Shown here in pieces: positions 28,003 through 32,872 of a stretch of DNA of 37,635 nucleotides. Where the stretch lies: assembly GCA_029267995.1 (NCBI GenBank), contig JAJUHG010000003.1, forward strand, positions 1 to 37,635, read 5' to 3'. The DNA comes from Micrococcales bacterium. GTDB taxonomy: Bacteria > Actinomycetota > Actinomycetes > Actinomycetales > Cellulomonadaceae. The translations under genes and the position numbers were made by a program. Each line of letters starts with the position of its first letter. Positions within the stretch are counted from its first letter, which is position 1. The notes beneath the pieces are model-generated. The model was given only the letters and a program-made list of their open reading frames with translations, ran no database searches and was not told where the DNA came from.

Positions 28003-29424
28003 ATGCGTAGAGCAAAGATCGTGTGCACCATCGGCCCCGCCACGGAGTCGCCCGAGCAGATCAGGGCCCTCGTGGACGCCGGGATGGACGTCGCGCGACT
28101 CAACCGCAGCCACGGAGACACCGAGCTGCACGAGAAGGTCTACCACCGGGTGCGCGAGGCGGCTGCGGCCGCAGGTCGTCCCGTCGCGGTCCTCGTCGAC
28201 CTCCAGGGTCCCAAGATCCGCCTCGGGACCTTCGTCGACGGCAAGCATGAGCTCGAGGTCGGTGACACGTTCACGATCACGACCGAGGACGTGCCGGGCA
28301 CCAAGGAGCTCGTCTCGACGACCCACAAGGGCTTGCCGGGCGACGCGCGCGTGGGCGACCCGATCCTCATCGACGACGGCAAGGTGCTCGTTCGCGTGAC
28401 CGCGGTCGAGGGGCCGCGCGTCGTGACGCGCGTCGAGGTGCCCGGCCCGGTGTCGAACAACAAGGGCCTCAACCTGCCCGGCGTCGCGGTCTCGGTCCCG
28501 GCCCTGAGCGAGAAGGACACCGAGGACCTGCGCTGGGCCCTTCGCGTGGGCGCGGACCTCATCGCGCTGTCCTTCGTGCGCTCGGCGAAGGACTACGACG
28601 ACGTGCGCCGGATCATGGAGGAGGAGGGTCGCGTCGTCCCCGTGATCGCCAAGGTCGAGAAGCCCCAGGCGGTCGAGAACCTCGAGGAGGTCGTCCTCGC
28701 GTTCGACGGCATCATGGTCGCGCGTGGCGACCTCGGCGTCGAGATGCCGCTCGAGCAGGTCCCGCTCGTGCAGAAGCGCGCGGTCGAGCTTGCGCGCCAG
28801 AACGCCAAGCCCGTGATCGTCGCGACCCAGGTGCTCGAGTCGATGATCAGCTCCCCGCGCCCGACCCGCGCCGAGGCCTCGGACTGTGCGAACGCGGTGC
28901 TCGACGGCGCGGACGCGGTCATGCTCTCGGGGGAGACCTCGGTCGGGGAGTTCCCGATCATCGCGGTCGAGACGATGGCCCGCATCATCGAGAACACCGA
29001 GCAGCTCGGCGCGGAGCGTATCGCCCCGCTCGGTTCGATCCCGCACACCCGTGGTGGCGCGATCACGCGCGCAGCCGCGGAGGTCGGCGAGATCCTCGGC
29101 GTGAAGTACCTCGTGACCTTCACCCAGAGCGGTGACAGCGCACGCCGCATGTCGCGCCTGCGCTCGTCGATCCCGCTGCTCGCCTTCACCCCGGACACCC
29201 CGACGCACAACGCGCTCGCGCTCAGCTGGGGCGTGACGCCCTACCAGGTCCCGCGGGTCGCGAACTCCGACGAGATGGTCGGCCAGGTCGACCAGACGCT
29301 CCGCGCGAACGGCCTGGCCGAGCAAGGTGACCTCGTCGTCGTCGTCTCGGGTGCCCCGGTCGGCGTCCCGGGCACGACGAACTCGATGCAGGTGCACCGC
29401 ATCGGCGACCTCGACCGCGGCTGA
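28003..29424 (+). CDS. pyk: Pyruvate kinase
   Basis: RRAKIVCTIGPATES, VDLQGPKIRLG, IAKVEKPQAVENL, MVARGDLGVEMP, ATQVLESMI. True start ATG 28003. Confidence 0.97.
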   Translation: MRRAKIVCTIGPATESPEQIRALVDAGMDVARLNRSHGDTELHEKVYHRVREAAAAAGRPVAVLVDLQGPKIRLGTFVDGKHELEVGDTFTITTEDVPGTKELVSTTHKGLPGDARVGDPILIDDGKVLVRVTAVEGPRVVTRVEVPGPVSNNKGLNLPGVAVSVPALSEKDTEDLRWALRVGADLIALSFVRSAKDYDDVRRIMEEEGRVVPVIAKVEKPQAVENLEEVVLAFDGIMVARGDLGVEMPLEQVPLVQKRAVELARQNAKPVIVATQVLESMISSPRPTRAEASDCANAVLDGADAVMLSGETSVGEFPIIAVETMARIIENTEQLGAERIAPLGSIPHTRGGAITRAAAEVGEILGVKYLVTFTQSGDSARRMSRLRSSIPLLAFTPDTPTHNALALSWGVTPYQVPRVANSDEMVGQVDQTLRANGLAEQGDLVVVVSGAPVGVPGTTNSMQVHRIGDLDRG

Positions 29425-29434
29425 GCCCGCACCT

Positions 29435-30901
29435 TCACGTCCGACGGGACGTCTCGGCCTCGGCCGGGGCGTCCCGTCGTCCGTGTCGGTCGAGGAACTC
29501 GTAGACCTCGCGGTCGTCGACGCCCGGGAAGGTCCCGGCGGGGAGCGGGGCGAGGACGTGCGCGTGCACGGTCGCGCTCGGCCAGGATCGCGAGGACCAG
29601 TAGTCGGCGAGCCCGGGCTCGGGCTCGCGGCAACAGCTCGGGTCGGGGCAGCGTGAGACGGTGCGCGTCGTCGTCTCGCGGCCCCGGAACCACTTCGCGT
29701 CCGCGTAGGGGACGCCGAAGCTGATCGAGAAGGCGCCCGTCGTCGTCGTCCCGGTCTGGGTCGAGCTCCAGTACGTCCCGCTCGGCGTGTCGGTGTACTG
29801 GTGGTACTCGGTCGTGCGGTCGCGGCGCGTGAACGCGACGCGCGCGGGCCACTGCCGGCACACCGGCTGGCCCTCGATCGCGCCGGTCGAGTCGGTCGGG
29901 AAGGCCATGCCGTCGTTCTCGAAGCCCTTGTAGATCGCGCCGTCGTCCCCGACCCGCAGGAAGTGCACCCGCAGGTCGAGGTGCGAGGTCATGAGGTTCG
30001 TGAGCCGCTGGGCGGCGGTCTCGTGCGTGATGCCGAAGGCGTCACGGAAGTCCTCGACCGCGAGGTCCTTGTTCTTCTTCGCCTCGGTGAGGAACGCCAC
30101 GGCGGCGTCGCGGGGGACGAGGCACGCGGCGGCGAAGTAGCTGATCTCGAGGCGCTGGCGCAGGAAGTCGGCGTACCCGCGTGGCTTGTCGTGCCCGAGC
30201 ACGCGGTGACCGATCGCCTGGAGTGCGAGCGAGCGCAGCCCGTGCCCCCCGGGGATCGACGCGGGCGGGAGGTAGATGCGCCCGTTCGCGAGGTCGGTCA
30301 CGGTGCGCGTCGAGTGCGGCAGGTCGTCGACGTGCAGGAGGGTGAAGCCGAGGTGCTCGGCCATGCGTGCGACCGAGCGGTGCGTCAGGGCGCCCGAGGT
30401 GTACCCGCCCCAGCGCAAGGCCTCACGGGCGGCCTCCTCGACCTCGGGCAGGTAGTTGTCCCGCTCGCGCATCCAGCCACGCAGCTCGGTGTTGGCTCGT
30501 CTGGCCTCCTCGGGCGTCGCGATCGCGGCGTCGACCCGGCGCGCGAGCTCGGAGTGCAGGCCGACGAGCGCCTCGAGCGCCTCGGTCGGCAGCGACTTGC
30601 TCACGCGCACGCGGGGCAGGCCGAGCCCGGCGTAGGTCGCGGACTGCTGCGCCTTCTCGAGCGCGAGCTCGAGCGCGGCCCGGCGGGAGGGCGGCTCGGG
30701 GGAGAGCAGCTCGGCGACCGGGACCCCGAGCTCGCGCGCGAGGTGCTGCAGGAGCGAGAGGCGAGGCTCTCGCTTGCCGGTCTCGACGAGCGAGAGCTGG
30801 CTCGCCGAGCAGCCCGCGGCCGCGGCGAGCTGGTCGAGCGTGAGTCCCGCCCGGGTGCGGAAGTGCCGGATGCGCATGCCCACGGTGCGGGGGTCGGTCA
30901 T
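29435..30901 (-). CDS. RamB/ScfR-like transcriptional regulator (XRE HTH + ImmA/IrrE-like + C-terminal DUF2083-type Cys region)
   Basis: [59 protein letters not shown]; ImmA-like region [16 protein letters not shown]-terminal CRQWPA and CPDPSCC. Confidence 0.85.
29442..29479. terminator. Terminator-like hairpin downstream of pyk, inside the 3' coding end of convergent scfR
   Basis: CGACGGGACG ... CGTCCCGTCG outer 10-bp stem, inner CGGCC-TC-GGCCG, with TCT/GGG joinable by G-U/C-G pairs. Confidence 0.65.
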
Positions 30902-30913
30902 GGGCCGAGGGTA
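30902..30913 (-). promoter_or_regulatory. Putative leaderless promoter of scfR: TACCCT-N6-ATG
   Basis: Minus strand: ggcTACCCT cggccc ATG. Confidence 0.5.
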
Positions 30914-30932
30914 GCCGTTCCTGACGAAAGGG

Positions 30933-30950
30933 CAAGAACAAGCATTCTTG
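30933..30950. promoter_or_regulatory. Candidate operator: perfect inverted repeat CAAGAA-N6-TTCTTG between scfR and pckG
   Basis: caagaa caagca ttcttg read directly; overlaps plus-strand TTGACA (30948-30953) and the minus-strand TTGCCC (30930-30935). Confidence 0.55.
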
Positions 30951-31039
30951 ACACCCGTGCACCGAGAAAGTCTGCACCTCTGCGGTCATGGTGGAAGCAG
31001 CGACGTCCTCCGTCGCACGGATCTCGCGAAAGGCGCACC

Positions 31040-32872
31040 ATGACGATGATGCAGGAACGCACCGTGACCCACCCTCGCCTCACGGCCTGGGTCGAGGAGA
31101 TCGCCCACCTCGCACGGCCCGACGAGGTCGTGTGGTGCGACGGGTCCCAGCGCGAGTACGACGAGCTGTGCGAGCTGCTCGTCGCGCAGGGCACGATGGT
31201 GCGCCTCGACCCCGCCAAGCGGCCGCGCAGCTTCCTCGCACGCTCGACCCCCGACGACGTCGCGCGGGTCGAGAGCCGGACGTTCATCTGCTCCGAGCGT
31301 GAGCGCGACGCGGGGCCGACGAACAACTGGCGCGAGCCCGGGGCGATGCGCGAGACGCTGCGGGGCCTGTTCGACGGCGCGATGCGCGGGCGCACGATGT
31401 ACGTCATCCCGTTCTCGATGGGGCCGGTCGACTCGCCGCTCGCCCAGCTCGGTGTCCAGGTGACCGACTCGCCCTACGTCGTCGTCTCGATGCACCTGAT
31501 GACCCGTGTCGGGACCCAGGTGCTCGAGGCGCTCGGTCCGGACGGACAGTTCGTGCCCGCGGTGCACAGCGTCGGCGCGCCGCTCGTCACGGGGGAGGGG
31601 GCCAACGAGGTCCGGGTCGAGGACGTGCCATGGCCGTGCAACGCGATGAAGTACATCTGCCACTTCCCCGAGACGCGCGAGATCTGGTCCTACGGCTCGG
31701 GCTACGGGGGCAATGCGCTGCTCGGCAAGAAGTGCTTCGCGCTGCGCATCGCCTCGGTCATGGCGCGCGACGAGGGGTGGCTCGCCGAGCACATGCTCCT
31801 GCTGCGCCTCACCTCGCCCGAGGGGCGCCGCTTCCACGTCGCCGCTGCCTTCCCCTCGGCGTGCGGCAAGACGAACCTCGCGATGCTGCGGCCCACGGTG
31901 CCGGGCTGGACCGCCGAGACGATCGGCGACGACATCGCGTGGATGCGCCCCGGCCCCGACGGGCGGCTGCGCGCGATCAACCCCGAGGCGGGCTTCTTCG
32001 GCGTGGCTCCAGGGACGGGCGTCGAGACGAACCCGACAGCGGTCGAGATGGTCGCGAGCGACACGATCTTCACCAACGTCGCGCTCACCGAGGACGGCGA
32101 CGTGTGGTGGGAGGGCCTCACGCCGACCCCGCCCGCGCGCCTGACCGACTGGCAGGGGCAGCCGTGGACCCCCGACTCGGGCCGGCCCGCCGCGCACCCG
32201 AACGCGCGCTTCACGGTCCGCGCAGACCGTGCCCCGAGCATCGCGAGCGACTGGGACGACCCCGCCGGCGTCGAGATCGACGCGATCCTGTTCGGCGGGC
32301 GCCGCGCGACCAACGTCCCGCTCGTGACCGAGGCACGCGACTGGGAGCACGGGGTGTTCCTCGGGGCGACGCTCTCCTCGGAGCAGACGGCGGCCGCGGA
32401 GGGGACGGTCGGGACGCTGCGGCGCGACCCTTTCGCGATGCTCCCGTTCTGCGGGTACCACATGGGCGACTACTGGCAGCACTGGCTCGACATGGGGCGC
32501 CGGCTCGGTGCCGCCGCGCCGCGGATCTTCGCGGTCAACTGGTTCCGCAGGGGCGCCGACGGTCGCTTCCTGTGGCCCGGGTACGGCGAGAACTCCCGGG
32601 TGCTCGAATGGGTGCTGCGGCGCGTCGAGGGCACGGCCGGCGCGGTCGAGACACCGGTGGGTCTTCGGCCCGCCGACGACGCGCTCTTCCTCGACGGTCT
32701 CGACCTCGGCGAGGCGGACCTCGCCGAGCTCTTCGCGGTCGACCCCGACTCGTGGCTCGAGGAGGTCGAGCTCGCGCGCGAGTGGTTCGGGATGATCGGC
32801 GACGCGCTGCCGGGCGAGATGGCCCACCAGCTCGAGGTGCTCCGCGAGAACCTCGAGACTGCTCGCGGCTGA
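31040..32872 (+). CDS. pckG: Phosphoenolpyruvate carboxykinase (GTP)
   Basis: [13 protein letters not shown]-loop, [62 protein letters not shown] 31040. Confidence 0.97.

Follow-up and report, generated by a model that had tools for sequence, protein, structure and literature searches.

A conserved inverted repeat between divergent scfR and pckG genes as the probable operator of a PrpR-like regulator in Cellulomonadaceae and relatives

Several regulators related to the ScfR type have been described that control acetate, propionate or gluconeogenic genes. PrpR of Mycobacterium tuberculosis (Rv1129c) activates prpDC and icl1; it recognises repeats of the TTTGCAAA type (PMC3420887), and its Cys363 is one of four [4Fe4S] ligands (PMC6765138). 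RamB of Corynebacterium glutamicum and M. tuberculosis, an acetate/gluconeogenic regulator of the same superfamily, represses its own gene, and its site in C. glutamicum is A(A/G)AACTTTGCAAA (PMC4448153). The RamB of Paracoccus denitrificans, a class 2 ScfR, activates the glyoxylate operon from an upstream site and binds coenzyme A (CoA) thioesters (PMC10370305). Here we consider a locus in a Micrococcales bacterium of the Cellulomonadaceae (assembly GCA_029267995.1, contig JAJUHG010000003.1, positions 1 to 37,635; this whole stretch of 37,635 nucleotides is referred to as the window), in which a gene for an ScfR regulator, scfR, is divergent to pckG across a 138-bp spacer, with the exact palindrome CAAGAA-N6-TTCTTG (CAAGAACAAGCATTCTTG) inside the spacer at 30933-30950. 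We take the product of pckG to be a GTP-dependent phosphoenolpyruvate (PEP) carboxykinase, a reading that comes from a first-pass annotation of the sequence and general knowledge of the family rather than from a family search. Pairs of an ScfR regulator gene and a divergent enzyme gene are a known type of system; the present one differs in its operator sequence and in its PEP-forming targets.

The palindrome is real, and its conservation extends to many related bacteria. On its own it is not improbable, as some 6-bp inverted repeat of any sequence with a 3-12 bp gap occurs in 25% of shuffled versions of the spacer; we therefore rejected significance from the palindrome alone, and the case for it rests on conservation in relatives. 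With up to two mismatches allowed, CAAGAA-N6-TTCTTG has a single match in the window where 0.08 are expected, and exact MAAGAW-N6-WTCTTK occurs once in the whole 2.6-Mb genome (none in the reversed control). Further two-mismatch matches are at about the control level, and no genome-wide regulon was found in the bacterium's own genome. For the comparison with relatives we extracted, from 130 distinct loci, the spacer that separates a regulator gene from its divergent target (113 pckG, 10 ppdK, 6 aceA and 1 PEP synthase); neighbouring genes were located by tblastn, with reference sequences that we take, by our own reading, to be ppdK, aceA, aceB and PEP synthase. The core AAGAW-N6-WTCTT scores at least 9/10 in 112 of them (94 perfect, 18 with one miss), while in shuffles of the same 130 spacers 0.45 cases reach 9/10 and no case 10/10, and so the palindrome passes the check that the first-pass annotation had proposed, namely its conservation in relatives that keep the scfR-pckG pair. 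Among the lower scores, some reflect only the position at which the alignment begins, and both L087 and L090 do carry the site. The core reaches 9 or 10 in all ten ppdK-neighboured loci and in all 11 scfR-pckG pairs from a second family of the same order, and is retained in all six aceA-neighboured loci; among more distant aceA-linked homologues, L194 and L203 share this core, while many have variants such as GTGAAATTCGGCGAATCTTCAC. A possible case of altered operator specificity is found in the scfR/PEP synthase spacer of a Curtobacterium (L062), where the inverted repeat GAAAATCCGGCGGATTTC takes the place of the canonical operator.

When 96 scfR-pckG spacers are aligned on the palindrome, the AAGA and TCTT half-sites are 94-100% complementary, and the symmetry extends to outer arms GT/AC and is lost when the dyad is shifted by 1-2 bp. 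Because the aligned rows were picked by their core score, the independent evidence comes from the outer arms and the flanks only. The centres of the AAGAA and TTCTT half-sites lie 11 bp apart. We regard the palindrome as very probably the ScfR operator. It is unlike the sites of the described systems: operators of the RamB/PrpR type, TTTGCAAA or [AG]AACTTTGCAAA, were found in none of the 130 spacers, the PrpR repeats being replaced here by AAGAA-N6-TTCTT, and the operator of the Paracoccus RamB, likewise an ScfR family member divergent to its target operon, consists of two near-identical boxes 18 bp apart, whereas the site here is a single compact inverted repeat whose halves are 6 bp apart. 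A reading as an RNA hairpin or terminator is unlikely, since the palindrome is upstream of both predicted start sites and a terminator scan found none.

The regulator itself is PrpR-like. Its N-terminal DNA-binding domain matches Pfam HTH_31 (1.5e-12) and HTH_3 (1e-11), its sensor region matches M. tuberculosis PrpR by PDB sequence profile (2.4e-11), and a Foldseek search with the predicted fold (mean predicted local distance difference test score 79.5, predicted template modelling score 0.67) gives PrpR as all of the top six matches, the best at 1.6e-12. It thus shares with PrpR the XRE helix-turn-helix, the sensor fold and the arrangement as a divergent regulator-enzyme pair. Four cysteines are invariant in a 16-member alignment, Cys348 and the triad C418-X4-C423-C424, of which Cys348 aligns with PrpR Cys363 (PrpR numbering derived from construct 81-486 with a 23-residue tag assumed). 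Unlike PrpR, which has C-X2-C-X4-C and is divergent to prpDC, the protein has C-X4-C-C and is divergent to pckG. By homology, which alone gives the ligand class, it is likely to be a PrpR-like sensor of short-chain acyl-CoA with iron-sulphur (Fe-S). The name RamB given in the first-pass annotation does not hold, as the NCBIfam RamB equivalog model (NF038139), which has a cut-off of 700, gives the protein 42.5 bits, and the protein is thus RamB/PrpR-like but not RamB; an aceA-linked member of its clade scores 55.4 bits. Some other members of the clade are divergent to aceA, a likeness to RamB. The Pfam family for the ScfR C-terminal region (PF09856) does not match the window protein and matches two of the 16 clade members, at best with 0.0018.

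Toward pckG, the 96 aligned spacers hold two conserved blocks, (T/G)(T/G)GAAA at +31 to +36 from the start of the palindrome and nAnnnTGGAA. In the window the corresponding candidate promoter is GAGAAA-17-CATGGT, spanning 30964-30992, which gives a predicted pckG start at about 30999 and places the centre of the operator at about -57.5 relative to it. Both hexamers are weak, with three of six matches each to TTGACA and TATAAT. The -10 hexamer begins at +54/55 from the palindrome start in 67 of the 80 loci scored, and this distance stays fixed while that from the operator to the pckG coding sequence varies from 99 to 319 bp. The -35 hexamer starts about 13 bp past the core palindrome and does not overlap the operator.

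Toward scfR, relatives have a putative TAnnGT -10 that sits 4 bp from the operator with the ATG 6 nt beyond, and the operator would fill the interval between the -10 and -35 positions. With a -10 only 6 nt from the ATG, the scfR mRNA is probably leaderless. In the genus of the window TAnnGT has decayed to TTTCGT, and TACCCT with TTGCCC appears to substitute for it, so that the operator would there overlap the scfR -35. The first-pass annotation had called TTGCCC-16-TACCCT as the scfR promoter, which is plausible and recurs in part in a second genome of the genus (L007). Its further claim, that the palindrome lies over the -35 elements of both genes, stands for the scfR candidate and falls for pckG. 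A generic sigma-70 scan found no promoter on either strand, and the promoter calls therefore rest on conservation. The features are collected in Table 1.

Table 1. Genes, operator and candidate promoter elements of the scfR-pckG locus (window coordinates)
Feature	Coordinates	Strand	Description
scfR	29435..30901	-	XRE helix-turn-helix regulator, 488 aa, PrpR-like (IrrE/GAF-like) sensor region
Putative scfR -10, TACCCT	30908..30913	-	6 nt from ATG at 30901; same TACCCT in second genome of genus (L007)
Decayed ancestral scfR -10 (putative)	30924..30929	-	TTTCGT here; TAnnGT in relatives, about 90% conserved at two key bases (columns -9 to -4)
Candidate scfR -35, TTGCCC	30930..30935	-	TTGACG in second genome of genus; 16 bp from TACCCT; overlapped by operator
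Operator (very probable)	30931..30952	.	Core AAGAW-N6-WTCTT, half-sites one helical turn apart, outer arms GTn...nAC
Putative pckG -35 position, GAGAAA	30964..30969	+	Weak; TTGAAA/TGGAAA-like in relatives (columns 31-36)
Putative pckG -10, CATGGT	30987..30992	+	Conserved nAnnnT then GGAA
pckG	31040..32872	+	610 aa

On its other side scfR (29435-30901) is convergent to a pyruvate kinase gene, pyk (28003-29424), about 10 bp away, which brings three genes of the PEP-pyruvate node (pyk, scfR and pckG) together. This adjacency of pyk is seen, among the loci fetched, only in the two genomes of the window's genus; most of the other loci reach only 1.5 kb past scfR.

Across genomes the site accompanies the regulator gene rather than pckG. 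We sampled 222 genomes of the Cellulomonadaceae, including Actinotalea and Cellulomonas, and some scfR match at a loose threshold is present in 216, mostly as full-length homologues. The scfR-bearing genomes sampled mostly have about one site, usually at scfR, and the second sites examined in other genomes are mostly at the divergent aceA of a paralogue. A pckG homologue is absent from 40 of the 44 family genomes that lack an scfR orthologue, so regulator and enzyme appear to have been lost together. Two genomes with a close pckG homologue and no scfR (G031 and G032) show no palindrome upstream of pckG (best 7/12); there a reading frame that we take from its translation to be MFS-like lies just upstream in the same direction. 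In one genus, G131 and G133 lack the aceA-linked paralogue of their sister species, yet have a 10/10 palindrome upstream of aceA (L179, L180). Four sister species have 8/10 variants upstream of aceA, and the paralogue was confirmed in the two that were checked (G129 and G130). A perfect aceA site in genomes without the aceA-linked paralogue is what would be expected if the remaining, pckG-linked ScfR had taken over aceA. In one Cellulomonas-like genus (g4), scfR is divergent to ppdK and keeps the palindrome in several genomes (L032, L034, L038, L039, L077-L080, L083), and at least two genomes (G028, G066) hold both a ppdK-linked scfR and a second, pckG-linked copy. In the tree, ppdK-linked regulators are nested in the pckG-linked clade and aceA-linked ones form a separate supported group. 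The bacterium's own genome (97% complete) shows no isocitrate lyase, no second ScfR and no second operator, so that the regulator looks dedicated to pckG there.

As for mechanism, we lean toward a model in which ScfR is a repressor at its own gene and, bound at about -58, an activator at pckG. An ScfR dimer, or half of a PrpR-like tetramer, would bind both AAGAA/TTCTT half-sites and in doing so block its own promoter through the overlap with the -35, giving negative autoregulation. Bound some 58 bp upstream of the pckG start, with a constant spacing to the weak promoter, the same protein would activate pckG when the cell must form PEP from oxaloacetate. The signal, by homology to PrpR and RamB, would be a short-chain acyl-CoA read through the Fe-S-stabilised sensor domain. 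Activation at pckG is favoured because the operator leaves the core promoter free and the promoter is weak, which agrees with the first-pass suggestion of a weak pckG promoter and possible dependence on an activator. The related proposal that autoregulation is coupled to control of pckG through a shared operator draws support from the conservation in relatives. Several observations weigh against this model. In the window the scfR -10 departs from the family consensus, as does the left outer arm of the operator, which is degenerate (GG); in a few relatives with the pair intact (L053, L054, L071 and L143 among them) the palindrome is weak or altered; and the 96 aligned spacers, being related by descent, amount to about 67 effective sequences. 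In addition, ScfR-type regulators include both repressors (RamB on aceA/aceB and on icl1) and activators (PrpR and the Paracoccus RamB), and thus either sign at pckG is conceivable.

A serious rival, though we hold it unlikely, is that ScfR represses both scfR and pckG and frees pckG when its acyl-CoA ligand changes, as RamB represses itself along with aceA/aceB in Corynebacterium, and icl1 in Mycobacterium. Such common repression sits poorly with an operator that is clear of the conserved pckG -35, and with the poor -35 and -10 in the window, which favour activation. That the operator serves autoregulation of scfR alone, with pckG controlled otherwise, would explain why the palindrome stays beside scfR whatever the neighbouring gene, and in relatives it lies within the scfR -10/-35 interval, the textbook place for a repressor. 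We nevertheless consider this improbable, as it leaves unexplained the fixed distance from the operator to the pckG -10, the joint loss of scfR and pckG, and the occurrence of the site in trans at aceA in genomes that lack the aceA-linked regulator. Palindromes are bound by many factors, and another regulator might bind this one, but the site tracks ScfR-type genes across changing neighbours and was not found at the pckG promoters of scfR-less genomes, which makes this very improbable. Least credible is the layout of the first-pass annotation, with TTGACA at 30948-30953 (plus strand) as the pckG -35 and a RamB-type site, AAAGTCTGCACC, at 30967-30978. Every string it quoted (TTGACA, TTGCCC, TACCCT and AAAGTCTGCACC, as well as the 138-bp spacer and the palindrome) is indeed present exactly where it was placed. 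However, TTGACA has no conserved -10 16-18 bp downstream and its bases, TT(G/C)AC in relatives, are the outer arm of the operator, the conserved promoter lying about 31 bp from the palindrome start. Of the RamB-like string, conservation is confined to AAA, which belongs to the pckG -35; it falls close to background in columns 38-50 past the palindrome start, and a single spacer of the 130, that of the window, holds the AAAGT-TGCA pattern.

In the open literature searched, which does not include the main ScfR classification paper (Carter and Alber 2015), we found neither this operator sequence nor the PEP-forming targets, and no paper linking an ScfR protein to pckG. As far as this literature goes, little has been described of how pckG is controlled outside Corynebacterium and Mycobacterium. 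On a fine balance, we believe that these regulators represent a separate Actinomycetes branch within the RamB/PrpR superfamily, with its own operator, GTnAAGAW-N6-WTCTTnAC, which would have moved with duplicated regulators among pckG, ppdK and aceA, that is, among routes into PEP and glyoxylate metabolism, so that one type of acyl-CoA/Fe-S sensor would gate gluconeogenesis in Cellulomonadaceae, Microbacteriaceae and relatives. The pckG, ppdK and aceA targets, together with the genomes in which the paralogue is absent and the site kept, provide a natural series for the re-use of an operator together with its regulator. A single compact operator, linked to one regulator and present in over 100 genomes, predicts the controller of the PEP-forming step in Cellulomonadaceae and relatives, and is most likely, judged from sequence, the site through which ScfR controls itself and entry into sugar synthesis.
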